The notes under the pieces: model-generated | What the model saw: only the letters and a program-made list of their open reading frames with translations | Database searches by the model: none | What the model was told of the DNA's origin: nothing | Source of the DNA: Adlercreutzia sp. ZJ176 | GTDB taxonomy: Bacteria; Actinomycetota; Coriobacteriia; Coriobacteriales; Eggerthellaceae | DNA: 64,000 nucleotides | Reading direction: 5' to 3' | Assembly (NCBI RefSeq): GCF_011038975.1 | Contig: NZ_JAAKEC010000002.1 | Span: forward strand, 124,001 to 188,000 | Made by a program: the position numbers and the translations under genes | Shown here: one piece after another, positions 12,726 through 25,486 of the stretch | Position numbering within the stretch: position 1 is the first letter of the stretch | How the letters are laid out: each line of letters opens with the position of its first letter

Positions 12726-15368
12726 ATGACGGATTCGAACGCAAAGGCGTCAAAGGGCACATGGTACAACGTTCCCTGCGCCACGAACTGCGGCGGGCGC
12801 TGCCTAGTCAAGGTGCTTGTCAAGAACGGCGAGTACGTGCGTACCAAGACCGATGATACGCATGAGGATAGCTGGGAGTGGCCTCAGGCAAGGGCGTGTC
12901 CCATGGGATATGCCCAATGGGAGAAGACGTTCGGGCCGGGCAGGCTCAAGTACCCCATGAAGCGCAAGAGCTGGAGTCCCGAAGCGCCTAACGGGCATCT
13001 CCGAGGTATGGACGAGTGGGAGCGTATCAGCTGGGACGAGGCGCTCGACATCATCTCGAGCGAGCTTGTCAAGGCAAAGGAGAAGTACGGCAACGAGTCC
13101 ATCCTCTTCATAAACATCATGTCGCTCGAAGGCTATTTGGGTTCAGTGCTCTCCAAGTTCGGCGGTTACGTCGATCTCTCTTCGGTTGACTCCATGGGCA
13201 CATTCACGTACAACCCGGCCATGTACGGCTTGCAGAACATGAACGTTAACGACCGCTACGACAACGTAAACTCGGATTACATCGTCCTGTACGGCCACAA
13301 CGGCGCGTGGGCCGAGTTCCCTTCCGCCTACTACCTGAAACCCGCGCATGAGGCGGGAGTGAAATTCGTCTTCGTCGGCCCCGAGTACAACGCCACCGCA
13401 GGCGTGTTCGACGCCGAATGGTTTCCGGTGCGTCAGGGCACCGACACTGCCTTCCTGCTAGGTGTAGCTCACTCCATGCTTACCCAGGACGACGGCGGTT
13501 CAATCGTCAACTGGGATTTTCTCGAGCGCTGCACCGTTGGCTTTGACAAGGCCCACATGCCCGACGATGCCAAGATCGACGAGAACTTCAAGGACTATGT
13601 TATGGGCGTCTACGACGGTATCGAGAAGACCCCCGAGTGGGCAAGCCTTATCTGCGGCTGTCCTGTCGACAAGATCGAAAAGTTCGCTCGCATCATGGGA
13701 GCTGAGAACAAGGTCTCCATCCACACAAGCGGCGCGCCAGCGCGCAATACCGGTGCGGAGAATTTCCCGCAGCTGCTCATGACCGTCGCTGCAATGGGCG
13801 GTCACTTCGGCACGCCCGGCAACGCCTGCTCCAACGACCAACAGTACGGCTCCTTTGACCGGGGTCCGACGCTGGCGAGCAACGGCGCCGGCGGACGTGC
13901 GTTCACCTGCTGTCCCACCGCTTTGAAGAACCCAGTTCAGATGAACATACCCAGCAACGAGGTTTGGGAGTCTGTCCTCAACGGCACGCCTTTCCATGAT
14001 TGTGGCGATGCCCTAGCCGGCATGCGTCCCTGCGAGGAGAAGCAGACCGACATCCACGTTATCGTGAGCGAGCACCACAACCGGCTGGGCTCGTTCGAGG
14101 GCACCGCGAAGGGCATCAAGGCCTTCCGCAAGGTTGACTTTGTGTGCGCGCAGGCATACTGGATGAAGACCGAGGCCAAGTATGCCGACGTCGTGCTTCC
14201 CGTTGCGACGCGTTGGGAGCGCTACATGTACAACTTCTATACGTCAGTGGGCGCCACCTATCGCGACTTCGCCCTCATCAACAACAAGGTCGTCGACCCT
14301 CTCTATGAGGCTAAGAGCGACTATGACATCGCCTGGGCGCTTGCCGAGAAGCTTGGCGTTGACATCAGCGAGTTCATGGCTGACAGCGAGAAGCAGCATT
14401 GGTTCAACAGCATCTCCGGCGCAAAGGTCATCGTGGCTGACGACGAGGAAGTCGACGAGAGCCTGCTCGTCGAGGGCGGTTCCGCGAACTGGGCGGATGC
14501 TATGCTCGAATCTGACGAAGGCGAGGTGGAAGAGAGCGAGGCCAAACCTCCGAAGCTGGGAGACCGATACCGACCGCTCGTAACCATCACCGAGGAGGAC
14601 CTCGAGAAGCTTGGCGTTAAGGGTAAAGTCCAGGAGGGCGTCATCTCGCTCGACCAGTTCCTGGAGGATGGCATTTACCGCTACAGGCGTGATGATGCCG
14701 GCTACCCAGGTGTCTACATTGCCTACGAGGACTTCGTGCGCGATCCCGAGGGCTGCCCGCTCGACACGCCTTCCGGCAAGTTCGAGATATACTGCCAGAC
14801 CAAGTCCGACTGGTTCGACAAGATTCACAACGGTTGGCCCAACTACCAGCCCGTGAGTCCTCTGCCCAAGTATCTGCCCACCGTTCGCGGCTATGTCGAG
14901 GGCTTCGAGGATTGGGAGAGGCAGATTCCAGGCAAGCACCCCTATATGGTGTCGAACTCCCACACCCTGCGCCACTCCCACACTGATCATGACAACTTGT
15001 CCTACCTGCGTGAGGCATGGGCGAATCCCGTTTACATCAGCGTTGCCGACGCCGCTGAGAAGGACATCGAGACTGGTGACGTGGTGATGCTTTACAACGA
15101 CAATGGCAAAGTGCTGCGTCGCGCCCAGGTGAGCCGATTCGTTATGCCTTCGACCCTTGATCTGCCGCATGGCTGCGCGGTCGAGGTTGATGAGGCAACT
15201 GGCATCGACCTTGCTGGTGCTGACAACTATCTGTGCTCGGCTGCTGAGACCACTGCCAACGGCAGCAACGCTTGGAACTCCACGCGCGTGAACTTCGAGA
15301 AATACGAGGGTGATTTGGTCTTGAGGCCAGATCACGAGTGGGAGCCGCGCGTTCCCCTGAAGGGTTAG
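12726..15368 (+). CDS. Molybdopterin oxidoreductase catalytic subunit, soluble DMSO-reductase superfamily
   Basis: An 880-residue enzyme of the DMSO reductase superfamily binding a bis-molybdopterin guanine dinucleotide cofactor. The N-terminal [4Fe-4S] motif is CATNCGGRC with a fourth Cys in ARACPMGY. The central molybdopterin region includes YGHNGAWAEFPS, and the C-terminal cofactor domain includes MVSNSHTLRHSHTDHDN. No twin-arginine signal is present, so it should act in the cytoplasm. An acidic insertion lies at about residues 571-611. GAGGAGG precedes the ATG. The partner is the ferredoxin-type subunit next door; no membrane anchor gene follows. Size and organisation resemble pyrogallol transhydroxylase and the soluble gut catechol dehydroxylases, but the substrate is unknown. 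Confidence 0.9.
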   Translation: MTDSNAKASKGTWYNVPCATNCGGRCLVKVLVKNGEYVRTKTDDTHEDSWEWPQARACPMGYAQWEKTFGPGRLKYPMKRKSWSPEAPNGHLRGMDEWERISWDEALDIISSELVKAKEKYGNESILFINIMSLEGYLGSVLSKFGGYVDLSSVDSMGTFTYNPAMYGLQNMNVNDRYDNVNSDYIVLYGHNGAWAEFPSAYYLKPAHEAGVKFVFVGPEYNATAGVFDAEWFPVRQGTDTAFLLGVAHSMLTQDDGGSIVNWDFLERCTVGFDKAHMPDDAKIDENFKDYVMGVYDGIEKTPEWASLICGCPVDKIEKFARIMGAENKVSIHTSGAPARNTGAENFPQLLMTVAAMGGHFGTPGNACSNDQQYGSFDRGPTLASNGAGGRAFTCCPTALKNPVQMNIPSNEVWESVLNGTPFHDCGDALAGMRPCEEKQTDIHVIVSEHHNRLGSFEGTAKGIKAFRKVDFVCAQAYWMKTEAKYADVVLPVATRWERYMYNFYTSVGATYRDFALINNKVVDPLYEAKSDYDIAWALAEKLGVDISEFMADSEKQHWFNSISGAKVIVADDEEVDESLLVEGGSANWADAMLESDEGEVEESEAKPPKLGDRYRPLVTITEEDLEKLGVKGKVQEGVISLDQFLEDGIYRYRRDDAGYPGVYIAYEDFVRDPEGCPLDTPSGKFEIYCQTKSDWFDKIHNGWPNYQPVSPLPKYLPTVRGYVEGFEDWERQIPGKHPYMVSNSHTLRHSHTDHDNLSYLREAWANPVYISVADAAEKDIETGDVVMLYNDNGKVLRRAQVSRFVMPSTLDLPHGCAVEVDEATGIDLAGADNYLCSAAETTANGSNAWNSTRVNFEKYEGDLVLRPDHEWEPRVPLKG

Positions 15369-15377
15369 GTGATTACT

Positions 15378-15962
15378 ATGTCAGAATACGGCTTCCTCTT
15401 CGATGCGAATAACTGCATTGGCTGCAAGACCTGTCAGGTTGCCTGCAAGGACTCGCATCGTCTGCCGATCGGCGTCAACTATCGCAAGGTTCGTTCTTTC
15501 ACCACTGGAGCATACCCTGAGGTTGGCATGTACCACGTGTCCATGGCTTGCAACCACTGCGCCAACCCCGCCTGCGCCAAGGCCTGCCCTCAAGGGGCCC
15601 TTTCCAAGGACGCAGCAACGGGCATGGTCGTCCTCGACGAGGACAAGTGCGCTGGTTGCGGCTCATGTGTGGCAGCTTGCCCCTACGGGGCTGTGGTTCT
15701 CAACCCCGAGATAGGCAAAGCTGGCAAATGCGATGGCTGCGTGGGCCTCGTGGCTCAGGGAGAGCGCCCCTCGTGCGAGGCAGCATGCCCCATGCGCGTC
15801 ATATGGTTTGGCCCGCTTGACGAGCTCAAGGCCAAATACGGCGATAAGGGCTACGTGCGCGATTTCGTGGTTCTGCCGTCTTCGGATGTCACCGACCCCT
15901 CGTTGGCTTGCGTCATCAAGGAGATCATGCTCGATTCTGATTACGACGAGGTTTTCAACTAA
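15378..15962 (+). CDS. Four-cluster [4Fe-4S] electron-transfer subunit (DmsB-like)
   Basis: A 194-residue polyferredoxin that passes electrons to or from the preceding molybdoenzyme. Four cysteine groups are visible: CIGCKTCQVACKD, CNHCANPACAKACPQ, CAGCGSCVAACPY, and CDGC paired with CEAACPMR. This is the DmsB/PhsB arrangement. ATG 15378 is used; a GTG three codons upstream is less likely. It starts nine bases after the catalytic subunit. The electron donor is not encoded beside it. Confidence 0.93.
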   Translation: MSEYGFLFDANNCIGCKTCQVACKDSHRLPIGVNYRKVRSFTTGAYPEVGMYHVSMACNHCANPACAKACPQGALSKDAATGMVVLDEDKCAGCGSCVAACPYGAVVLNPEIGKAGKCDGCVGLVAQGERPSCEAACPMRVIWFGPLDELKAKYGDKGYVRDFVVLPSSDVTDPSLACVIKEIMLDSDYDEVFN

Positions 15963-15993
15963 AGCAGCACCTCTGATCATAGAGTAGATGAGC

Positions 15994-16037
15994 GGCGCGG
16001 TCTGCTACCATAGGAGGTGGGCCGCGCCTTCTGCTTT
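15994..16037 (+). terminator. Possible terminator after the molybdoenzyme operon
   Basis: GGCGCGG (15994-16000) pairs with CCGCGCC (16022-16028), followed by a T-rich CTGCTTTT tract. The loop of 21 bases is long, so support is moderate. Confidence 0.35.
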
Positions 16038-16097
16038 TGCCGTACGGCAGGGCTTGTCACAATCGCGGCGAAGGGGGGAAGTGGTAAGGGGGATCTT

Positions 16098-16682
16098 ATG
16101 ATTGAAAGAGTTGGAACAAAGGAAATATTCGCCCGCTCTCTCATGGAGATCGCCGAAGACAAGCCGGCCAACAAGATATCGGTCAAGGAAATCGCCGCGA
16201 ACTGCGGCATGACTACAGCGACCTTTTACAACCATTTCGAGAGCAAGTATGATCTGATGGCATGGGTCAACAACCGCGACACTGATGCGGCAACCGATAA
16301 GTTCGGCTATGAAAACGACTGGCTCCAGACGATTCGCCTCTACATTGACGCGCTGTGCAGACACAGGGATTTCTATCGCAACTCCCTCCAGAATACCTAC
16401 GGGAGAGAATCGCAGCACATGCGCACCTTCTATCACTTCAAGGACCACGCGGTAGAGCACCTCAAAAAGCTTCACGGGATGGACGAGTTCAGCCCGAAGG
16501 TTGCGTTCTCTCTCGACTTCTACTTCCAAGGACTTTCCCACGTCATGGTGAACTGGCTGCTTGACAAGGAACCAGTTCCCGCCGAAGAGCTTGCCCAGTG
16601 GTGCGTGGAGAGCATGCCCCACGAAGTCGAGTGGCTCTTCTTGGAACCGCCGAAGAAACAACTGGGAGAAGAATTGAGATAA
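16098..16682 (+). CDS. TetR/AcrR-family regulator
   Basis: A 194-residue regulator. The N-terminal helix-turn-helix reads ISVKEIAANCGMTTATFYNHFESKYDL, the classic TetR recognition helix; the C-terminal half is a helical ligand/dimer domain. ATG 16098 follows AAGGGGGATC. It lies downstream of the molybdoenzyme operon on the same strand and probably controls it. The recognition helix strongly resembles that of the second TetR gene at 28173 (both contain FYNHFESK), and both sit beside redox operons. Confidence 0.88.
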   Translation: MIERVGTKEIFARSLMEIAEDKPANKISVKEIAANCGMTTATFYNHFESKYDLMAWVNNRDTDAATDKFGYENDWLQTIRLYIDALCRHRDFYRNSLQNTYGRESQHMRTFYHFKDHAVEHLKKLHGMDEFSPKVAFSLDFYFQGLSHVMVNWLLDKEPVPAEELAQWCVESMPHEVEWLFLEPPKKQLGEELR

Positions 16683-16712
16683 CGCGGTCAGCTTGCCCGA
16701 ATGCCTTGCTGA

Positions 16713-16858
16713 CGCTCCCCTTCTTCCTGCAATAGAATGTACTACGTTACTATACGTTCTGAGGATTCACCATGGCAATGGAGGCGACAGTCGTCAGGCT
16801 TGGGAACGCGAAGCCTAGGCGCGCAAGGCCCCGGCACCGCACCTCGGGAGGGATATAA
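16713..16858 (+). pseudogene. Duplicated antitoxin leader and truncated antitoxin start
   Basis: Bases 16713-16801 match 11076-11164 (promoter, ribosome site, first codons). The frame from ATG 16772 begins MAMEATVVRLGN, as in the orphan antitoxin (MAMETTTIRFAP), then diverges into unrelated Arg/Pro-rich codons and stops at 16858. Only the first ten or so codons remain of a second antitoxin gene. The rest of the 16683-16983 gap holds nothing else that I recognise. Confidence 0.65.
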
Positions 16859-16983
16859 GGCGCGGTGCTGGGAACCTGTCGAAGAGGGTTCGCTTTTCGA
16901 ACCCGTTTTGCTCTGACGCGCCCTGCTCGATTCCAGCGTGCTCAAGCATGCTCTCGTTCGGCTTGCCCAAGCCTGCCTGAGCG

Positions 16984-18072
16984 CTAGGCGCCGTAGTTGA
17001 TGATGCCGCTCACCTCGTCTTCGGTCATCGGGCACTCGAAGAAGTGCTCGTAGAAGTACGTGATGTCCTCGGCAAGCTCAGCTTCGGAGTACAGGTCGGG
17101 ATACAGCTTGCTCATCGCCCACATGACGGTGAGCGGCTGCTCGACCGTGCGATTGCCCCACACATGCGCTACCGTCGGGACGGCGTACACGCGCCCACTT
17201 TGGATGGCGGGGATGTTCTGCAGGTTCGCGTCAGCGAGGATGTCGCCCACCTTCACGTTCGACGAGAAGATGACCTCGGGCTGCCAGCCGAGCAGATCCT
17301 CCATGGTGTACTCCAGCGAGTTCTTGACATGCGCCTCCTTCGTCACGCTGCTTCCGCCCGCGGTTTCGATCCACCACTCGGAGATGACGTGGGGGTTCGT
17401 CAGCGACATGACGTCTCCGTAGAGTGTCTTGACGCGGTCTGCCTCGGCAAGCCCGCTGGTCAGGGACTCCGCCTTGCCAACCATCTGGTCGAAGTAGTCG
17501 TTGTAGTCCTTTGCGCGATCAGGGACGTTGAGCGCCTCTCCCATCAAGGTGACGGCCTTCTTCACGTCCTCGACGTCATTCCACTTCAGGACGATGCAGG
17601 CAAGTCCGTTTTCCTCCAGCTGCTGCGCCGTCTCCTCGGTCATGGTGATGCACAGGTCGGGGTTGACGGTAAGCGTCTTCTCGATGTCGACTCCGTCAGC
17701 CGTCTCGAACACCTCCCCTTCCTTGATCTGCGGCGCGAACTTGTACTGCATGGCCCACTTGTCGTTCTTCGTGAAGTTCGCCGGCATCTCGTTCACGATC
17801 GCCTCGCCTTTGCCCATGCACTCGACGAAGGCGTTCAGCACCCCCACCGAGCCGAACGTGGCGATGCTGTCAACCTCGGCGGGGATCTCGACGGTCCTGT
17901 TCGCCATGTCGGTTACAGTGCGCGTAGCCGGAGCCTCGGCAGCTGCGCTGCTGCTCTCGCTCGCCTTCGGCTCACTTGACGCGCAGCCGGCAAGCGCAAG
18001 GCACGCGAGCGCCGCTGCCAGCAGCGTCGACAGCGCCATGCTGGCGATCTTTCGCATGTTTCGTTTCGTCAT
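16984..18072 (-). CDS. ABC transporter substrate-binding lipoprotein (TroA/BtuF-type fold)
   Basis: A 362-residue lipoprotein that would capture a metal, oxyanion or metal chelate outside the membrane and deliver it to a FecCD-type permease. The signal peptide (about 29 residues) ends in the lipobox LAGC. The mature protein has RTVEIPAEVDSIATFGS, typical of the periplasmic-binding class with a helical backbone. It is the last gene of a minus-strand run MoeA-like / permease / ATPase / binding protein. With a MoeA-like gene in the operon, molybdate or tungstate (MolABC-like) is an attractive substrate; an iron or cobalt chelate cannot be excluded. Confidence 0.88.
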   Translation of the reverse strand: MTKRNMRKIASMALSTLLAAALACLALAGCASSEPKASESSSAAAEAPATRTVTDMANRTVEIPAEVDSIATFGSVGVLNAFVECMGKGEAIVNEMPANFTKNDKWAMQYKFAPQIKEGEVFETADGVDIEKTLTVNPDLCITMTEETAQQLEENGLACIVLKWNDVEDVKKAVTLMGEALNVPDRAKDYNDYFDQMVGKAESLTSGLAEADRVKTLYGDVMSLTNPHVISEWWIETAGGSSVTKEAHVKNSLEYTMEDLLGWQPEVIFSSNVKVGDILADANLQNIPAIQSGRVYAVPTVAHVWGNRTVEQPLTVMWAMSKLYPDLYSEAELAEDITYFYEHFFECPMTEDEVSGIINYGA

Positions 18073-18102
18073 AGCTTTGAAGTCCTTTCTCTTCGGTTGT
18101 TC

Positions 18103-18966
18103 TCAAGCCCTTCCCAAGCTCGTCTTGAGCTCTTGGCTTTCTTTGGAGCCCGCTCGAACGCCAGCGTGCGCGCGGGTGTAGGCCGTTTCGTCAAGCAGGG
18201 GGATGCACGTCTTGACCACGAGGCCGCCCACGAACGTTCCGCCCACATGGACCGGCGTGTCGTACAAGTTGGTCAACGACTCGCTGGTCACGATGTCGTC
18301 AGGCGAGCCGACGTCGATGAGCGCGCCGCTCTTCATGAGCGCCGCCTTCGTGCACGCCAGGAAGGCATGGTCGGGATAGTGCGAGGTCATGAGGATGCCC
18401 AGGCCCTGCCCCGCCAGGTACTTGAGGGCCGTGAGGATCTTGACCTGATTGTGGTAGTCGAGGTTGGCGGTGGGCTCGTCCATCACCAGCAGCCGAGCGT
18501 CTTGGGCAAGCGCCCGCGCGACGAGCACCATCTGGCGCTCCCCTCCCGACATCTCCTGGTAGCGGCACTCGGCCAAGTGCGCTATCTGCAGCCGCTCCAT
18601 CGCCTCGTCGACCACCTGCCTATCACGCGCCGTATGGCTGGCGCCGGCGGAAAGGTGCGCCACACGCCCCATGAGCACCACCTCGCGCGCCGTGTAGGGA
18701 AAGGCGATGCTCGTCGACTGCGGCACGTAGGCCAGGTAGCGGGCGCGCCTCTCGAGACGCATCCGCGTCACGTCTTCGCCGTCAATGAGGATGCGCCCGC
18801 CATCCGGCCTCTCGAACCCGAGCAGGCAGCGCAGAAGCGTCGTCTTCCCCGTTCCGTTCGACCCCAGAAGGCACAGTATCTCACCGCGGTCGATGCTGAA
18901 GCTGACGCCCTTCAGCACTTCCCTGCCCCGGCGATACGAGAACCTCACGTTGCTGACGTCGAGCAT
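18103..18966 (-). CDS. ABC transporter ATPase (FepC/BtuD type)
   Basis: A 287-residue ATPase energising the adjacent importer. Motifs in order: Walker A GSNGTGKTT, Q-loop in YVPQSTS, signature MSGGERQ, Walker B LLVMDEP, and the switch His in MTSHYPDHAF. ATG 18966 overlaps the permease stop as TGATG. The C-terminal extension of about 40 residues ends with KTSLGRA and is of unknown use. Confidence 0.95.
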   Translation of the reverse strand: MLDVSNVRFSYRRGREVLKGVSFSIDRGEILCLLGSNGTGKTTLLRCLLGFERPDGGRILIDGEDVTRMRLERRARYLAYVPQSTSIAFPYTAREVVLMGRVAHLSAGASHTARDRQVVDEAMERLQIAHLAECRYQEMSGGERQMVLVARALAQDARLLVMDEPTANLDYHNQVKILTALKYLAGQGLGILMTSHYPDHAFLACTKAALMKSGALIDVGSPDDIVTSESLTNLYDTPVHVGGTFVGGLVVKTCIPLLDETAYTRAHAGVRAGSKESQELKTSLGRA

Positions 18967-19981
18967 CACACCCACTCCTTCCGCGTGTGGATGAGGAGGA
19001 ACACGAACATCGGCGTGCCGATGAGCGCCGTGAGCACGCCTAAGGGCAGGTCGGAGAACGAGGAGCGCACGATGTCGTCGATGAGCAGCAGGAAGATGCC
19101 GCCGGCGAGAAACGAGCTTCCCAGCAGCTTGGAAAACGACGCGCCTGTTATCGTGCGGGCGATGTGGGGAACCACCATGCCGATCCAGCCGATGATGCCC
19201 GCAACGGAGACCGCGCACGCCGTCATGAGGGTGGAGGCCACGATGACGACGCCCTTGACCACGTTGACGTTGACCCCCATGGATCGAGCCTCGTCCTCCC
19301 CTGCAGCCAGGACGTCGATCTTGTTGCGAAGCGCGAACAGCAGGGCCAGCGACAGGACGACGGCCGGGCACATGAGGGCCAGATCGGCGTTATCACCTTT
19401 GTTCAAACTCCCCATCAGCCAAAACGTGATCGAGGGGAGCACGCGTCAGTGTCAGCCACCGTCTTCACGATGGAGATGAGCGCTTGGAAGAAGCTGGACG
19501 TCACCACGCCCGCCAGCACGAGCACCGTGAGGTTCTGCCGGCCGAGCACCGCGCCGATGACGTAGGCGAGCAGCACGGCGACCGAGCCGCCGACGAAGGC
19601 GGCGAGCTGGATCTGCCACCAGGTGCACCCGTTGAGCATGGCGAGCGCCGCTCCGAAGCCCGCGCCTGCTGACACCCCCAAGATGTCCGAGGACACCATG
19701 GGGTTCTTGAACACCGTCTGATACGACGCTCCCGACACCGCCAGCGCACCGCCGATCAGCACCGAGAGCGTGATCTGCGGAAAGCGGACGCCGAGCATGA
19801 TCTGGTCGGTCACGGTAGACCAATACGGCTCGATCCCCGTCAGGCGCGAGAGCAGGACGTCAACCACCAGCGGCACCGATGCCTCGACGCTGCCGACGAC
19901 GAACGAGCACAGGTAGACGACGACCAGCACCGCAGCCAAAAGTCCCATCTTCACCCAGAAGTGCCACGCGCGCACCCTCAC
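18966..19981 (-). pseudogene. FecCD-type permease gene with a frameshift
   Basis: Together, two frames encode a normal FecCD permease of about 338 residues. The first (from GTG 19981) runs to KTVADTDA and then goes out of frame, stopping at 19415. The second begins in frame at LPSITFWLMGSLNKGDN (about 19439) and runs to the stop at 18966. Restoring one base in the GACGCGTGCTCCCC region (about 19440-19448, read on the minus strand) gives the family-typical sequence VADTDAVLPSITFWLMGS. It is either a recent inactivating deletion, a sequencing error, or programmed frameshifting; no slippery heptamer is obvious. Start and stop overlap both neighbours. Confidence 0.85.
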
Positions 19982-21189
19982 CTCCTCGCCCTCCCCTGCG
20001 CCGAGGTGCCCAACATCTCCACCATAAGCTCGCTTCCCGCATCAAGGCTGCATCCCGGCGCCAAGGCGCAGTAGGCGTTGACGGTGCGCACGTTCTGGGC
20101 GAGCGAGGATGCACGGGAGGGCGCGGAAACGTGCAGCCCGTCGTCGCGCTCGTCGGCAACCAGGCGCACCAGGCGCTCGAACTGCGGGCGCGCTGCGAGC
20201 GAATCGTCGAGCAAGGCGCTTCGCGTCATGCGCCGCGGCATCTTCTGGCCCTGGTAGAAGCATATGAGCGCCTGGAGCAGCCAGTCGCAGGCCAGCCATG
20301 CGGCCAGCATGGGGCCGGGGACGTTGAGCGCCGGCTTCCCGTTGATGACGGCAAGGCCCACGGGCCGCCCGGGAACCGCCTTGATGCCATGCGAGAAGTA
20401 CGAGGCGCGCTCCTGCAGAAGCTGGGCGCAGAAGTCCTCGGATCCACGCGAGGAGCCGCCGTTCACCAGGACGATGTCGCAGCTCGCCACAAGCTCGTCG
20501 ATCGCTGCGCCGAGAAGCTCCTCGTCATCGGCGACGATGGGACACTCGACGAGGCAGGCGCCCCATTGCTGCACGAATCCCCTGATCATGAGGCCGTTGC
20601 TCTGGATGGTCTCGCCTCTTTCGGGACGCGTGCCCACCGCTACGAGCTCGCTTCCCGTGGGAAGGTAGCCGATGCGCAGCTTGCGCTTCACCTCAACTGC
20701 GTCAAAGCCGCCGGCAGCGAGCAGCGCCACGTCTTCGGGACGCAGCACGGTTCCCTCTGCGCAGAGAAGCTCTCCTTCCGCAAGCTGGGATCCCGCCGCG
20801 CGGACGCCGCCGCCCGGCTTGACCCCCTTGACCTCAGCGAAAGAAAGGCCGCCATTCGGCAGGGTCGCCACGTTCTCGATGGCGATCACCGCATCGAACG
20901 CGTCGGGGAAGTCATCTCCCGTGTCGGCGCGCACGAAGTCGACGCCCGGCTTCCACGCCGACGCGTCGGGCACGCCGCCTGCGAAGTCCGCTGACCTGAC
21001 GGCCACCCCGTCAAAGGCCGACACGCGATGCGCAGGCGCGTTCCACCGCGCGCGGTACTCGCGGGCCGTAACGCGCCCGTACGCTTCGCCGAGCCTTATC
21101 GTCTCCGTCTCGACGGGCATCTTCCAGCGACTCGTGAGCGCGCTGACGGCCTCAGGGCGCGTGAGCGCTTTCTCGACTTCGAACTTCAC
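19978..21189 (-). CDS. MoeA-like molybdopterin molybdenumtransferase homologue
   Basis: A 403-residue MoeA/gephyrin-family protein, the enzyme class that inserts molybdate or tungstate into molybdopterin. Recognisable parts are HRVSAFDGVAV (family SxxDGYA), domain 3 with YLPTGSELV and VNGGSSRGSEDF (usual GGVSVGDYD), and VPGPM where MoeA normally has PGNP. The departures suggest a specialised paralogue. It is the first gene of the ABC transporter operon and is divergent from the Crp/Fnr gene. It may couple uptake of the oxyanion to cofactor assembly. Confidence 0.82.
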   Translation of the reverse strand: MKFEVEKALTRPEAVSALTSRWKMPVETETIRLGEAYGRVTAREYRARWNAPAHRVSAFDGVAVRSADFAGGVPDASAWKPGVDFVRADTGDDFPDAFDAVIAIENVATLPNGGLSFAEVKGVKPGGGVRAAGSQLAEGELLCAEGTVLRPEDVALLAAGGFDAVEVKRKLRIGYLPTGSELVAVGTRPERGETIQSNGLMIRGFVQQWGACLVECPIVADDEELLGAAIDELVASCDIVLVNGGSSRGSEDFCAQLLQERASYFSHGIKAVPGRPVGLAVINGKPALNVPGPMLAAWLACDWLLQALICFYQGQKMPRRMTRSALLDDSLAARPQFERLVRLVADERDDGLHVSAPSRASSLAQNVRTVNAYCALAPGCSLDAGSELMVEMLGTSAQGRARR

Positions 21190-21221
21190 GGCAGATTCCC
21201 CCTCCGCAAGTTGTCCTTACT

Positions 21222-21235
21222 TAATACATGTATTA
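21222..21235. promoter_or_regulatory. 14-bp palindrome upstream of the MoeA-like gene
   Basis: TAATACATGTATTA is a perfect palindrome 33 bases before the MoeA-like start, in the AT-rich divergent region. It is a candidate operator for the minus-strand transporter operon. Confidence 0.4.
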
Positions 21236-21261
21236 GAATAATAGTTATTTCAGAATAATAA

Positions 21262-21275
21262 GTTGCCATGGCAAC
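21262..21275. promoter_or_regulatory. Shared operator GTTGC-N4-GCAAC, copy 1
   Basis: GTTGCCATGGCAAC is a perfect 14-bp palindrome between the divergent MoeA-like and Crp/Fnr genes. The same half-sites recur upstream of the NifH-like gene at 25473-25486, again followed by ATG. Symmetric half-sites of this size suit a Crp/Fnr dimer. Confidence 0.7.
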
Positions 21276-21329
21276 ATGACCGAATCTCGCGCGACATGCC
21301 GCTGGGTTTCGCCGAAGGAGCAGCACGCA

Positions 21330-22013
21330 ATGCAGCATCATCCGACCACGATTGACCACGAGGCGCTTGCGCGTCTCCCGCTCTTTGAGGGGATTCCCGC
21401 CGAGAAGCTCGAGCAGGTTCTCGTCTGCCTCAAGGCCCGGCAGCGCTGCTATGCGAAGGACGAGATCATATTCCGCAGCGGCGACAACAGGCGCGCTGCG
21501 GGCGTGCTCGCACGGGGACGTGCCGTGAACGTTTGGGTTGACCGCGAGGGGAATCACTCGATCATCAGCGAGTACTCCCCGGGATCCATCATCGCCGGAG
21601 ACGCGCTGACAAGCGGCGTGGCCACGTCGCCGCTCGACATCGTAGCCACGCAGGATTGCGCGGTGGTGAGCTTCAGCATGGACGTGAGGGTGACGGGCTG
21701 CGAGCGATGCCGCCATTACGCCAACATCGTGCAAGAGAACGCAACCAAGGCCATCATGCAGATGAACGAGCAGATGGCACGGCGGATCTGCGTGCTGTCA
21801 GAGCGCTCGGTGCGCGGCAAGATCACGTCGTTTCTCGCCGCGCAAGCCGAGAGGGCGGGAGCCCGCTCCTTCACCATCGACTTCGACCGTCAGCAGCTTG
21901 CCGACTACCTCTTCGTCGAGCGAACCGCCCTCTCCCGCGAGCTCGGCAAGATGCGGAGGGAGGGGCTCATCGCCTGCGACCGCAACGAGTTCACGCTGCT
22001 CGGCGAACGGTAG
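21330..22013 (+). CDS. Crp/Fnr-family transcriptional regulator
   Basis: A 227-residue regulator. The N-terminal cyclic-nucleotide-binding fold runs from LPLFEGIPAEKLEQV to about residue 120. The C-terminal winged helix includes QQLADYLFVERTALSRELGKM. Cysteines occur in VCLKARQRC and in VTGCERC, so redox or metal sensing is possible, although the Fnr N-terminal cluster motif is not seen. ATG 21330 is chosen because GAAGGAG precedes it; the frame is open to 21276. It lies between the MoeA/ABC operon and the nitrogenase-like genes, and the shared operator suggests that it controls the nitrogenase-like genes and itself. Confidence 0.9.
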   Translation: MQHHPTTIDHEALARLPLFEGIPAEKLEQVLVCLKARQRCYAKDEIIFRSGDNRRAAGVLARGRAVNVWVDREGNHSIISEYSPGSIIAGDALTSGVATSPLDIVATQDCAVVSFSMDVRVTGCERCRHYANIVQENATKAIMQMNEQMARRICVLSERSVRGKITSFLAAQAERAGARSFTIDFDRQQLADYLFVERTALSRELGKMRREGLIACDRNEFTLLGER

Positions 22014-22124
22014 GCGGCATGCGTTGAAGCGGTGGAGGACGTGCGCTGAACGCCTTGCACCGAGGACGTCGCAGCGAAGCGGGCTTGCGGCAAGGCCTTC
22101 GGCGGCAGCGGGTCAGGCAGCGGG

Positions 22125-23366
22125 TCAGGCCAAGCGCGCGCAGGCGTTCAGCGTCTGCGCACACACGCTCTCCCACCCGCTCTTGTCGCTGCATCGGTCG
22201 TACAGCTTTCCGGAAACCGCCCGATGAGGCCAGGGCACCACCGCCATGCCACGTGCCTCGGGAAGCCTCAAGAGCAGCGGGTCAGCCACCAGGACATCGC
22301 AGGCGCCCTGCGCCAAAAGCGCTGCCAGGCGCTCTTCGGAGTCAAGCTCGATCGTTCCCAGCCGCCGCGTTGCGCGCTCGTCGGTGAAGAACGAGGCCGT
22401 CGCAACCGAAACGCCGTGCGCCCGCCGCGCAACCTCATGCGCCAGCGCATGGGCGGACAGCTGCTCGGCCACCACCAGCACGCGCGCGCTGGGCTCTCCG
22501 CATGCGCATGAGCTTGCCGTGAGGAACGCGTAAGGATCCCCCTTCGCGGCGATTGCCGCCAGCTCCCCCATGTCGTGGCCGAAGCATGCCGGTGACCAGC
22601 AGAGGAAGGGAATGTCGAAGCGCGCTTCGAGCGCACGGGCGAGCTCGAGGCCCGACTCGGAGCCGACGAGCGCAACCTTGCAGCAGGCCAGGTCTTCGGC
22701 TTCCGCGTGCTCAGCACCGAAGGGCAACGTCGGCGTCCACCCGCCGTCCTCGACGAAGCGCATCACAGCGCGTACGGCCTCGCTGCTTCCGAAGTCGAAC
22801 GGGTTGAATCCCACGAGGGCCGCGCGCGGTTTCGAGGCGTCGCGCGCAGCGGAGTCGTCCGTACCTGATTGCCGGCCTGACGCCGCGCCTGCTTGCCGGC
22901 TGCCGCGGTCATGTTGGGGCGACGACGCGTCGCACAGCCGCAGAGCGGCTTCGTACACCCGCCTGACGCCGACGTCATAGCCGGCGAACCCGTCAGTCTC
23001 GATGCCGACGACCGGAACAGCGGCCTCGGCGGCGATCTGGCGCGCCAACCCGGGGAGGTCCATGCCCACCAGCGAGGGGACGGGCGTGCCCAAAAGCGCG
23101 GCCAAACGGGGGCGCGAGCGCCTCAGCGCGGCGCTGACCTGGCATGTCAGCGCTTCGTCAGCGCCCAGCACGGTGTCGACGGTGCGCAGATGCGCGGAGA
23201 GCACCGGACGCTCCGCATCGTCTGAGCGCACGCCTTCGGCCTCGAGGAAGCTGTACGAGCAGCACCCTGGGTCGACGAAGACCAGCTGCGCGTCGCAGCC
23301 GGAAAGGACGCTCGCTGCGCCGGAGTAGTCGGAGGCGAAGGGCGGGAGGAAGCGCGACAGCTGCAT
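22125..23366 (-). CDS. Nitrogenase component 1-like protein B
   Basis: A 413-residue protein of the NifD/NifK/BchN/NflD superfamily, third gene after the NifH-like one. It begins with a family-like segment (FASDYSGAASVLSGC then VDPGCCSYSF) holding Cys24, Cys35, Cys36. The segment VPSLVGMDLPG aligns with NifD/NifK CVPNLIGDD, but Pro replaces the cluster cysteine there. The NifD FeMo-cofactor ligands are not apparent. It probably forms a heteromer with the next protein and receives electrons from the NifH-like protein. The substrate is unknown; it is not a classical nitrogenase, because nifB and nifEN are absent here and the ligands differ. Confidence 0.82.
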   Translation of the reverse strand: MQLSRFLPPFASDYSGAASVLSGCDAQLVFVDPGCCSYSFLEAEGVRSDDAERPVLSAHLRTVDTVLGADEALTCQVSAALRRSRPRLAALLGTPVPSLVGMDLPGLARQIAAEAAVPVVGIETDGFAGYDVGVRRVYEAALRLCDASSPQHDRGSRQAGAASGRQSGTDDSAARDASKPRAALVGFNPFDFGSSEAVRAVMRFVEDGGWTPTLPFGAEHAEAEDLACCKVALVGSESGLELARALEARFDIPFLCWSPACFGHDMGELAAIAAKGDPYAFLTASSCACGEPSARVLVVAEQLSAHALAHEVARRAHGVSVATASFFTDERATRRLGTIELDSEERLAALLAQGACDVLVADPLLLRLPEARGMAVVPWPHRAVSGKLYDRCSDKSGWESVCAQTLNACARLA

Positions 23367-23369
23367 GGC

Positions 23370-24629
23370 TCACACCAGCCCTTCCACATCGCCCGCGACT
23401 GACGAGCGCCCCTGCCGCGCCGCGCGCGCCAGCGCGTCATAGAGGCGCGCCACGCCGTCGAAACCGAAGCATCCCTCGTCATGGAACATGTCCACCGTGG
23501 CATGCGCGTCAAAGCAAGCCGCCGCGTCAGCACCGACGGCCAGAAGCCCCTCTGCGTCGCGCGGGGCATCCGTACCGCGGTCAGCAGCGCACTCCAGCTG
23601 CATGATCTCAGGATGCGTGCGCTCAAGCTCGCGCGCTCCTGCTCGCTGAGGCTCCTTGGTCGGCGAGGCTATGACGGCGACGACGTTAAACCCCGCGTCG
23701 GCAAGCGACTGCGCCAGCGCATGCGGCTCATGCGTCGCAAGGGAGTCAACGGCAACGGGCCGGCTCCCTACCGCTTCGCGCGCCTGCTCGAGCGAGCGCT
23801 CAGCACGCTCACGTGCGCGCGCAAGGGCAGGTGCCGGCGCCTCGAAACATGAGCGGGTCGCCTCATCGCCCACGCCGCGCGCATGCAGCGCCTGGGCGAG
23901 CGCGGCGTAGTTGGCGGCCATGCGGTCAACGTCATAGACCGTCTGCCAGTGCACCGTCGGCATGTGCAGCCGCTGCTCGAGCTGGAGGCACTGGCGCCGC
24001 CCGATCCAGGAAACCGAGAGCGCGAGCGCGCTCGACGCGAGGCGCTGGTATTCGTCGAAGGTTCGACAAGAGGCGACGTTGCGCACCTCGCTCACGCCCC
24101 ACGAGCGCATCACCGCGACGAACTCAGACGTTGCGGGAAGGTCGTCGAAGCGCCCTGCCACCGTGATGGCATCATCATGCCGCTCCTGCGGCTCAAGCAG
24201 GTCGTATATGCCTCCCTGCATGCCTGACGACCTCTCCCGCCCCCCTTCGGACACCGGGTTGACCCGCGTGACGGCGATGCGGATGCCGGGCACGGCCTCC
24301 TCAAGCGTCTGCACGAGCGCTTGCTCGTCGGTGCCCAGGAAGTCGTCAACGCAGTTGAATACGAGCGTCACGACGCGCGGGCGCTCAGGCAGCCGCGCGA
24401 CGAGGTCGGCCACCACCAAGGGCAGGTGCCGCTCGTAATCACCCAAGGCGATGTCAGAGGGACTGAGAAAGCAGAACGAGTAGTCATCCGACGTGTCGTT
24501 CTCCAAGACGCGCAGCGCATGGCGACGCCCGCACGCAGGCGGGCACACGAACAAGGTGTGGCTCTCGGGTACGCGCAGGCGGTCGCGATGACGCTGCGGC
24601 AGGCGCACGCGGTAGCGAAGGTCGGTCAT
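23370..24629 (-). CDS. Nitrogenase component 1-like protein A
   Basis: A 419-residue NifD-like protein. Cluster-binding cysteine candidates are Cys29 and Cys33 in FVCPPACGRRHALR, Cys53 in YSFCFLS, and Cys93 in FNCVDDFLGTDE, which aligns with the third P-cluster cysteine region of NifD/NifK. The CPPACGRRHA motif is typical of uncharacterised nitrogenase-like (Nfl, group IV) proteins. ATG 24629 overlaps the NifH-like stop as ATGA, and the partner gene starts three bases downstream, so the three are co-translated. Confidence 0.84.
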   Translation of the reverse strand: MTDLRYRVRLPQRHRDRLRVPESHTLFVCPPACGRRHALRVLENDTSDDYSFCFLSPSDIALGDYERHLPLVVADLVARLPERPRVVTLVFNCVDDFLGTDEQALVQTLEEAVPGIRIAVTRVNPVSEGGRERSSGMQGGIYDLLEPQERHDDAITVAGRFDDLPATSEFVAVMRSWGVSEVRNVASCRTFDEYQRLASSALALSVSWIGRRQCLQLEQRLHMPTVHWQTVYDVDRMAANYAALAQALHARGVGDEATRSCFEAPAPALARARERAERSLEQAREAVGSRPVAVDSLATHEPHALAQSLADAGFNVVAVIASPTKEPQRAGARELERTHPEIMQLECAADRGTDAPRDAEGLLAVGADAAACFDAHATVDMFHDEGCFGFDGVARLYDALARAARQGRSSVAGDVEGLV

Positions 24630-25384
24630 GCGGTAGCCTCGGGAAGCGCTGCCACGAAGTCGGCCAAGCCCCCGTATGCGCGGGCGGCGGCGCTTTCGGG
24701 AAAGCGCTCGAAGCACAGCGCCCCGGCCTCGTCCGACTCCAAGACCTCATCGCTTCGGGGAATGCGCGCAACCAGGCTCACCTGCTCCTCTTCGCAGAAG
24801 CGCGCCAGGGTCTCGTCCTCGTTCCGCACGTTTCGGCAGTTGGCGACGAGCCCGGCGAACTCAGCGTAGCCTCGGCCCTCGAAGTGGCGCAGCGCCGCCA
24901 AGATGTTGCTCGCCGCATACAGCGACATCATCTCACCTGAGGAGACGACGATGACGTGCTGGGCGTACGCGCTCCGCAGGGGCATGGCGAAGCCCCCGCA
25001 CACCACGTCGCCCAAGACGTCGTACAGAACGACGTCAGGGCACAGGACGTCAAAGGCATGCAAGGCGTCAAGCTGCTGAAACGCCGTGATGACGCCACGG
25101 CCCGCGCAGCCGACCCCCGGCAGCGGCCCGCCCGACTCCACGCAGTAGACGCCCGACGCCGATCGGAACACGATGTCATCCAGGGCCGCCGCGCCGCCAT
25201 CGCGCATTTCATCCAAGACGGTCGGGATGCGCTGCCCGCCCATGAGCAGGCGCGTTGAGTCCGCCTTGGGATCGCACCCTATCTGCAGGACCACAAGGCC
25301 GCGCGCAGCCAAGGCCGCCGCCACGTTGCAGGTGGTGGTCGACTTGCCGATCCCCCCTTTTCCGTAGATCGCAACGCGCCTCAC
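24626..25384 (-). CDS. nflH: NifH-like Fe protein of a nitrogenase-like system
   Basis: A 252-residue ATP-dependent reductase. It has the P-loop GKGGIGKSTTTCN, CDPKADSTRLL, the first bridging cysteine in GVGCAGRGVITA, and the second in YDVLGDVVCGGFAMP, so a subunit-bridging [4Fe-4S] cluster is expected. It is shorter than NifH (about 290), lacking part of the C terminus. GTG 25384 has GAGGAGG eight bases upstream. It heads a three-gene operon with two component-1-like proteins, and the GTTGC-N4-GCAAC operator lies 90 bases before the start. It should pass electrons to components A and B at the cost of ATP. Confidence 0.92.
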   Translation of the reverse strand: MRRVAIYGKGGIGKSTTTCNVAAALAARGLVVLQIGCDPKADSTRLLMGGQRIPTVLDEMRDGGAAALDDIVFRSASGVYCVESGGPLPGVGCAGRGVITAFQQLDALHAFDVLCPDVVLYDVLGDVVCGGFAMPLRSAYAQHVIVVSSGEMMSLYAASNILAALRHFEGRGYAEFAGLVANCRNVRNEDETLARFCEEEQVSLVARIPRSDEVLESDEAGALCFERFPESAAARAYGGLADFVAALPEATA

Positions 25385-25472
25385 GAAGCCTCCTCTTCTG
25401 CCGCGCAACCTTCGCTGAGCTGCGCCTCTTTGCTATCTGCGAACAAGGATAGTTGATCTCAGGCCGAAAGAC

Positions 25473-25486
25473 GTTGCAACGGCAAC
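25473..25486. promoter_or_regulatory. Shared operator GTTGC-N4-GCAAC, copy 2
   Basis: GTTGCAACGGCAAC has the same two five-base half-sites with four-base spacing as the palindrome at 21262-21275. It lies upstream of the NifH-like operon. Confidence 0.7.

Follow-up and report, generated by a model that had tools for sequence, protein, structure and literature searches.

What is a nitrogenase relative for when its genes stand beside a metal importer and a MoeA-like protein? We address this question for a cassette of the intestinal bacterium Adlercreutzia sp. ZJ176 (order Coriobacteriales; assembly GCF_011038975.1; host genome 2.72 Mb), contained in a 64,000-nucleotide window of contig NZ_JAAKEC010000002.1 (positions 124,001 to 188,000). 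A preliminary description had drawn attention to positions 21222–25486 of the window, a stretch bounded by palindromes and not by genes: TAATACATGTATTA begins at 21222 and GTTGCAACGGCAAC ends at 25486. Our analysis indicates that the cassette encodes a nitrogenase relative belonging to none of the known kinds with which it was compared, and that it probably carries out hitherto undescribed ATP-driven chemistry on metals or cofactors, because a metal-chelate importer and a MoeA-like enzyme accompany it in several phyla and close relatives occur in a hydrogenase-maturation operon.

A nitrogenase-like cassette with its own importer

The cassette spans positions 16984–25486 and comprises the importer, the MoeA-like protein, a Crp/Fnr protein and one NifH-D-K-like set. 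On the minus strand it reads nifH-like, D and K and then, after the plus-strand Crp/Fnr gene, MoeA-like, FecCD, FecE and FecB. Gene identities come from Pfam profile matches of nine window pieces:

24626–25408, minus strand, NifH-like Fe protein, ATP-dependent reductase component (PF00142, Fer4_NifH, 284 bits)
23370–24629, minus strand, NifD-like component-1 subunit, called D (PF00148, 52.8 bits; invariant C33 and C93)
22125–23366, minus strand, NifK-like component-1 subunit, called K (PF00148, 56.5 bits; invariant C36)
21276–22013, plus strand, Crp/Fnr-family regulator (cNMP_binding, HTH_Crp_2; start probably 21330)
19978–21189, minus strand, MoeA-like protein of the metal insertase subfamily (PF03453, PF00994; subfamily by alignment)
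19415–19981, minus strand, FecCD permease, first part, frameshifted (PF01032 positions 2–157)
18966–19442, minus strand, FecCD permease, second part (PF01032 positions 160–310)
18103–18969, minus strand, ATP-binding cassette (ABC) ATPase FecE, start approximate (PF00005; recurs with the cassette)
16984–18072, minus strand, FecB-type lipoprotein, predicted to bind a metal chelate or oxyanion (PF01497)

The preliminary description had announced a NifH-like protein with both bridging cysteines, two NifD/K-like proteins and a metal-import operon. The first is borne out by Pfam score and alignment, the second by PF00148 and the component-1 fold of the AlphaFold models, and the third by FecBCD genes of the metal-chelate type, with PF01497, PF01032 and PF00005 in one operon as in type II importers. 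Two details of layout need correction. The overlap reported for the D and K genes lies between NifH and D, with 4 nucleotides shared by the NifH stop and the D start; D and K are 3 nucleotides apart. The MoeA-like/ABC operon shares its strand with NifHDK; the gene divergent from MoeA is that of the Crp protein.

The host's closest relative in the sample, genome G224, belongs to the same genus. The same locus in Adlercreutzia sp. ZJ473 (L065) encodes proteins 93% (NifH), 85% (D) and 81% (K) identical. Relative to ZJ473, fecCD (18966–19981) carries a one-base deletion that breaks the frame near 19444; the related locus L037 has an unbroken permease frame, and the split may be an assembly error or mark a recently broken importer. 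The MoeA-like protein matches MoeA_N (93 bits) and MoCF_biosynth (54.5 bits), has no Pfam match to MoeA_C and falls short of the molybdopterin molybdotransferase equivalog (164.9 bits, cut-off 440; its highest NCBIfam score is 235.1 bits, cut-off 534). In the host genome the window D and K are the only PF00148 matches, and the window copy is the sole long one (250 of 271 positions) among four matches to the NifH profile. Elsewhere that genome encodes a ModA-type protein, a [NiFe]-hydrogenase and, in addition to the window protein, a canonical MoeA (MoeA_N match on contig C44).

The cassette recurs with FecBCD and MoeA

We compared two overlapping sets of loci. The class sample holds 13 Coriobacteriales loci from 12 genomes (L037–L047, L054, L056), excluding a second family of the host's order, f2, which is considered below. 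Fourteen named loci span two phyla and come from Adlercreutzia, Berryella, Eggerthella, Ellagibacter, Gordonibacter, Curtanaerobium and Pseudoflavonifractor and from Clostridiales, Lachnospiraceae, Alkalibaculum, Oscillospiraceae, Desulfitobacterium, Sporobacter and a Coriobacteriales metagenome-assembled genome (MAG); five of them (L065–L067, L071, L075) equal class loci, so the counts overlap. FecBCD genes adjoin D-K in 12 of the 13 class loci, the exception (L045) having D and K without NifH or FecBCD, and FecBCD-type genes stand beside D-K in all 14 named loci, one of which (L076) shows only FecCD and FecE parts at a contig end. On plasmid pTS1 of Treponema saccharophilum the order is FecB-H-D-K-FecB-FecCD-FecE.

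A MoeA-like gene lies beside the cassette in 6/13 class loci and 11/14 named loci. In a Sporobacter MAG, K and MoeA share one 807-codon open frame with both Pfam domains (L077, 3483–5906), which may be a fusion or a stop codon lost ahead of an internal start. This frame strengthens the MoeA link; because it was seen once, it leaves the odds of the readings discussed below as they were. Among six loci chosen for their MoeA paralogue (L096–L101), three (L096, L097, L099) hold MoeA and FecBCD without NifHDK within the stretch fetched, and a fourth (L100, Eggerthellaceae, genome G156, 13301–17449) places FecBCD and MoeA beside nitrogenase-like D, K and H of another type, whose cysteine motifs look canonical by eye; L098 and L101 have MoeA without FecBCD. 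MoeA thus goes with the importer, since the pair occurs without NifHDK or with a different trio. Other partners are occasional. DUF364/DUF4213, a family named for putative heavy-metal chelation, joins the cassette in L041 (by Pfam) and in L042/L071 and L078 (by similarity). In L039 and, by similarity, in L040, MoeA is followed by a radical S-adenosylmethionine (SAM) protein of the HmdB/HydE/BioB kind that reaches no cut-off, and NTPase_1 lies beside the cassette in L070 and L072, together with a methyltransferase in L070. Giant surface proteins next to some cassettes were considered as heme-binding partners and rejected: of three scanned, two had surface-repeat-type domains and one no Pfam match.

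Conservation of FecB bears on what is imported. In eight loci beyond Adlercreutzia with the same FecB type, FecB is 46–67% identical to the window protein and D 29–50%; because FecB identity exceeds D identity, these loci probably have a FecB ligand in common. Eight PDB entries matched the FecB profile, with HI_1472 (E value 4e-19) in fifth place. HI_1472 is the molybdate-binding protein MolA of the MolABC importer (HI_1470–1472). The window importer shares with that system a FecCD-type permease and an adjoining ATPase.

D and K form a branch apart from Nif, Mar and Bch references

No known family claims the three proteins by profile. The NifH-like protein reaches none of the nearest equivalog cut-offs, scoring 299.6 bits against CfbC (NF033200; cut-off 402), 288 against nifH (394.35) and 186.8 against bchL (345.15). 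D has no NCBIfam match and no PDB sequence match at E 10. For K the nearest NCBIfam profile is NifE (38.9 of 505.1 bits, E 3.9e-10), and NifE chains are also its PDB sequence matches (E 3e-4); against CfbD, which D does not match, K scores 19.1 of 268.4 bits. AlphaFold models of D and K (mean predicted local distance difference test scores of 80.3 and 73.3) both match solved component-1 chains. The D model ties among ChlB, NifN, AnfK and BchB/BchN chains (Z about 21, root-mean-square deviation (rmsd) 4.3–5.5, 347–375 residues), and the K model is nearest BchB, the B subunit of dark-operative protochlorophyllide reductase (DPOR; Z 28–29, rmsd 3.7–4.2, 355–374 residues), with NifEN and Mar (methylthio-alkane reductase) at Z 24–25.

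Trees were built against Nif, Bch and Mar-like references from plasmid records and three PDB fragments. In the D/K tree of 56 rows, 20 D rows and 19 K rows, drawn from the window, the class and named loci, the Treponema plasmid and the f2 pairs, form clades at 100/100 on long stems, and these clades include no Nif, Mar or Bch row; the long rows of BchN and BchY meet in this tree, and nine rows including window K have odd composition. Window D and K are therefore a branch outside the Nif, Mar and Bch references. In the NifH tree the window protein lies outside the starred Nif and Mar groups. The 29 cassette and f2 rows occupy one side of a branch at 78/53, which is not significant, so the NifH tree does not support unity of these rows on the NifH side. 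The two Bch Fe-protein rows, both on very long branches, do not group with each other, and the MarH rows of R. rubrum and Chlorohelix form a starred pair apart from the window. A Treponema row labelled MarH by its neighbours groups with Nif, and its label is unsure. Plasmid pTS2 of T. saccharophilum, from the same strain as pTS1, encodes a radical SAM protein along with NifX-like proteins, NifH and two component-1 proteins (L090, 7674–17426) beside O-acetylhomoserine sulfhydrylase and cysK, and is Mar-like by its neighbours.

The preliminary description had called the system uncharacterised, and had held that placement inside BchLNB, Mar or CfbCD would overturn this. None of the reference clades used includes the system, and no NCBIfam cut-off is reached by H, D or K; separation from BchLNB and Mar comes from the D/K tree, and that from CfbCD from profile score only.

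Cysteines point to a single bridging cluster

Walker A and both bridging cysteines of the NifH-like protein (C92 and C128 in the first row) are invariant in 17/17 aligned rows. On the component-1 side the invariant cysteines are D C33 and D C93 (20/20 rows) and K C36 (19/19 rows), the other cysteine columns varying. D C33 aligns with NifD C88 and BchN C54, D C93 with NifD C154 and BchN C115, and K C36 with NifK C94 or BchB D36; the other ligand positions are occupied by D R13, K S12 and K P95. Across these 20 D and 19 K rows, D and K together do not show the six P-cluster cysteines. Since the position of NifD C62 is Arg in D and two further ligands are missing from K, the sequences argue against a normal P-cluster and suggest a [4Fe-4S] cluster held by three protein cysteines, perhaps with one open iron site. 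NifD C274, the M-cluster ligand, falls in a gap of window D where the alignment is weak. The search for nifB that the preliminary description had proposed found no match to TIGR01290 in the host genome; as a control, the same profile matched in 7/14 genomes.

DPOR (BchLNB) is one of the close relatives compared. It too combines a NifH-type reductase with a heteromeric D-K complex and a single bridging cluster, which we infer for the window system, and its B subunit is closest to the K model. The DPOR cluster is held by three N-subunit cysteines and a B-subunit Asp, whereas the window system offers two cysteines from D and one from K: BchN C29 corresponds to D R13, and the B-subunit Asp to K C36. 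Window rows also fall outside the Bch rows, and the host genome holds no further PF00148 protein. For the NifEN scaffold, NifE is the sequence profile nearest K, at a small part of the cut-off, and the host lacks NifB or another component-1 pair.

Mar (MarBHDK) carries P- and [Fe8S9C]-clusters according to PMC12552129; window D and K lack the P-cluster ligand set, the host lacks the NifB companion, and the D and K clades are separate. CfbCD, which serves F430 synthesis, gives the highest NifH-side profile score, but CfbD is homomeric, as PMC12552129 states, whereas window D and K are two distinct proteins; this comparison is by profile score. Isethionate reductase (Isr, IsrBHDK), as outlined in PMC11423573, is a group IV nitrogenase-like HDK system found in intestinal bacteria too, and it depends on a radical SAM protein, NflB, encoded next to H. 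The window system is likewise a group IV-type HDK set from an intestinal bacterium, but the nine window pieces scanned include no such protein, although L039 and L040 have a radical SAM gene after MoeA; this comparison is one of gene content.

Rare palindromes mark both promoters

Three elements lie in the intergenic regions of the cassette:

21262–21275, no strand, exact palindrome GTTGCCATGGCAAC between MoeA and Crp, in the same place in Adlercreutzia sp. ZJ473
25473–25486, no strand, exact palindrome GTTGCAACGGCAAC upstream of the nifH-like gene
21236–21258, minus strand, direct repeat TTATTC-N11-TTATTC in the MoeA/Crp promoter, single copy in 64 kb

The pattern GTTGC-N4-GCAAC occurs exactly five times in the genome, twice in the cassette's two promoters; read backwards, it occurs four times. 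Assuming random placement, the chance that two of five sites fall within about 280 promoter bases is near 1e-7. Exact sites occupy both places in ZJ473. Others precede fecC in Eggerthella sinensis (L067) and in a congeneric genome (L040), as well as the nifH-like gene of Berryella. Gordonibacter and Ellagibacter cassette promoters have variants only, and the exact palindromes of Gordonibacter L078, inside the K gene and at 17188, were discarded as promoter sites. The direct repeat is found once each in L065, Ellagibacter L071 and Gordonibacter L078, at the MoeA/Crp or fecC promoter, and not in eight other loci scanned. Crp/Fnr homologues accompany 6/13 class loci, one as a partial match. In the window, a ribosome site precedes 21330 and a palindrome abuts 21276, making 21330 the more likely start. 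The Crp/Fnr protein is thus likely the cassette's own regulator, as the preliminary description had it, and would act by binding the two genome-rare palindromes.

Kin in a hydrogenase-maturation operon

The same D and K clades include pairs from family f2, where 7 of the 14 genomes with D hits were examined at the locus. All seven loci (L048–L053, L055) show the order H-D1-K1-HypF-HypD-HypE-D2-K2, with a second NifH before D2 in L053 and about 4 kb between D2 and K2 in L050. HydE and/or HydF lie nearby in 5/7 loci (L048, L049, L051, L053, L055), and in L048 HypF, HypE, HypD, HydE, HydF and a TM1266 regulator all score above their NCBIfam cut-offs.

In the sample, the 14 f2 genomes with D hits are exactly the 14 with HypD. 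All carry the [FeFe]-hydrogenase domain PF02906 (1–5 matches) and HydF above cut-off; none has HydG above cut-off, although the search found HydG in G213 and G232, and the weaker matches in all 14 are read as HydE. The [NiFe]-hydrogenase domain PF00374 is found in 0/14, which removes [NiFe]-hydrogenase as an explanation for HypD and means that the f2 Hyp proteins serve something else. In the 13 tested f2 genomes without D hits (G002, G015, G033, G044 and nine more) PF02906 is present without HypD, PF00374, or HydF or HydG above cut-off. We infer that the f2 Hyp proteins feed HydE and HydF; the pattern suggests an undescribed pathway to the H-cluster ligands, possibly independent of HydG. For acetogens, PMC9431212 discusses a hydG gene that had been missed, and it also discusses the weak activation obtained when HydE and HydF are the only maturases. 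The open-access papers listed on HydG absence, HypD, H-cluster maturation, nitrogenase-like proteins and nitrogenase in Coriobacteriia gave no description of this operon. The Adlercreutzia host has a 662-residue open frame with an [FeFe]-hydrogenase domain (G000:C7:37152–38027), with no HydG match and no HydF above cut-off.

A proposed role in metal supply

From the genes observed, the way they recur, the clades of D and K, the invariant cysteines and the promoter sites, we propose that the cassette is a unit for metal acquisition and processing, in which a reductase powered by ATP acts on an imported complex, probably of molybdenum or tungsten, and hands the metal to the MoeA-like insertase. 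We give this reading a probability of roughly 40%. FecBCD would import the complex, for which an oxyanion or a chelate of molybdenum or tungsten is most likely. The NifH-like ATPase would pass low-potential electrons to a D-K complex through a [4Fe-4S]-type cluster on D C33, D C93 and K C36, and D-K would reduce the complex that it has bound, thereby releasing or changing the metal. The MoeA-like protein would then put the metal into molybdopterin or a related cofactor, and the Crp/Fnr protein would switch both transcription units through GTTGC-N4-GCAAC. Of the substrates suggested in the preliminary description, a cofactor or metallophore fits the FecBCD, MoeA and DUF364 partners.

Several observations weigh against this proposal. 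MoeA is missing from 7/13 class loci, and the K-MoeA frame is a single case from a MAG with a possible internal start before MoeA. Four PDB entries (4ovk, 4hn9, 4pag, 6b2x) outscore HI_1472 against FecB. In Gordonibacter, Ellagibacter, Curtanaerobium and a Lachnospiraceae MAG, FecB is only 21–28% identical to the window protein, and its ligand may differ there. The exact palindrome is found at no promoter among the Bacillota loci scanned. Beside the f2 D-K pairs no FecB or FecCD match occurs in 7/7 loci, and MoeA_N has no match in the three f2 genomes tested. The host's ModA-type importer and canonical MoeA mean that the cassette is not its only molybdenum route; the idea of a sole molybdenum importer was dropped, a ModA-type protein being present in 33 of 36 tested genomes, the host included.

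A wider reading takes the window and f2 systems as one undescribed branch of the nitrogenase superfamily for metal or metal-cofactor chemistry, in which the window sub-branch handles FecBCD-imported metal for MoeA and the f2 sub-branch, with its two D-K pairs and HypFDE, provides the CO and CN ligands of the [FeFe]-hydrogenase H-cluster in place of HydG. We advance it tentatively. The shared clades also allow D-K to be a NifEN-like platform for building or reducing a metal centre before it is passed on; NifH would then use ATP to reduce it or would insert the metal, and MoeA would supply or receive the metal. NifEN itself is a cofactor assembly platform and NifE the nearest K profile; the f2 partners HypFDE, HydE and HydF are metal-ligand assembly enzymes, and the K-MoeA frame fits as well. 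Set against the missing NifB, an adjoining importer that points to an external substrate, and a K model closer to DPOR B than to NifEN, such a scaffold is a doubtful candidate.

Reduction of an imported heme- or corrin-like ring, in the manner of DPOR or CfbD, would suit the BchB-like K model, the alignment of two bridging-cluster cysteines with those of BchN and the weak FecB hits to the IsdE (E 2e-5) and BtuF (E 5e-4) profiles. The better FecB hits in PDB, however, are by name neither heme nor B12 binders, MoeA accompanies most named cassettes, and the bchL and CfbC scores lie far under their cut-offs, making a tetrapyrrole or corrinoid substrate unlikely. A similarly improbable case is a reductase that frees iron from an imported catecholate-type siderophore, with MoeA only co-regulated. 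FecBCD is the usual siderophore importer type, and on plasmid pSPTER of Sporomusa termitida (L084, 3619–16068) a FecBCD-NifHDK cassette, itself a candidate nitrogenase-like siderophore reductase, stands between a TonB-dependent siderophore receptor, an AraC regulator and a PF00756 esterase. The Sporomusa D and K fall outside the window clades, however, so that this context is only an analogy; among the named loci no other extra partner is as constant as MoeA, and the neighbouring frames picked for Pfam scans, a part of all neighbours, include no siderophore esterase. A small sulfur or carbon substrate as for Mar, the other suggestion of the preliminary description, is set aside for want of NifB and a P-cluster ligand set.

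Implications

A search of open-access papers gave no account of nitrogenase-like systems in Eggerthella or as siderophore reductases. If the metal-supply reading is true, an ATP-driven nitrogenase-type reductase acts in the metal supply of gut bacteria, and the nitrogenase superfamily gains a metal-handling function. Gut bacteria of this kind use many molybdenum enzymes. The f2 operon would make it testable how H-cluster ligands arise without HydG. Genetic tools for Coriobacteriia have reportedly been developed, and both questions, that of the window cassette and that of the f2 operon, are approachable by genetics.

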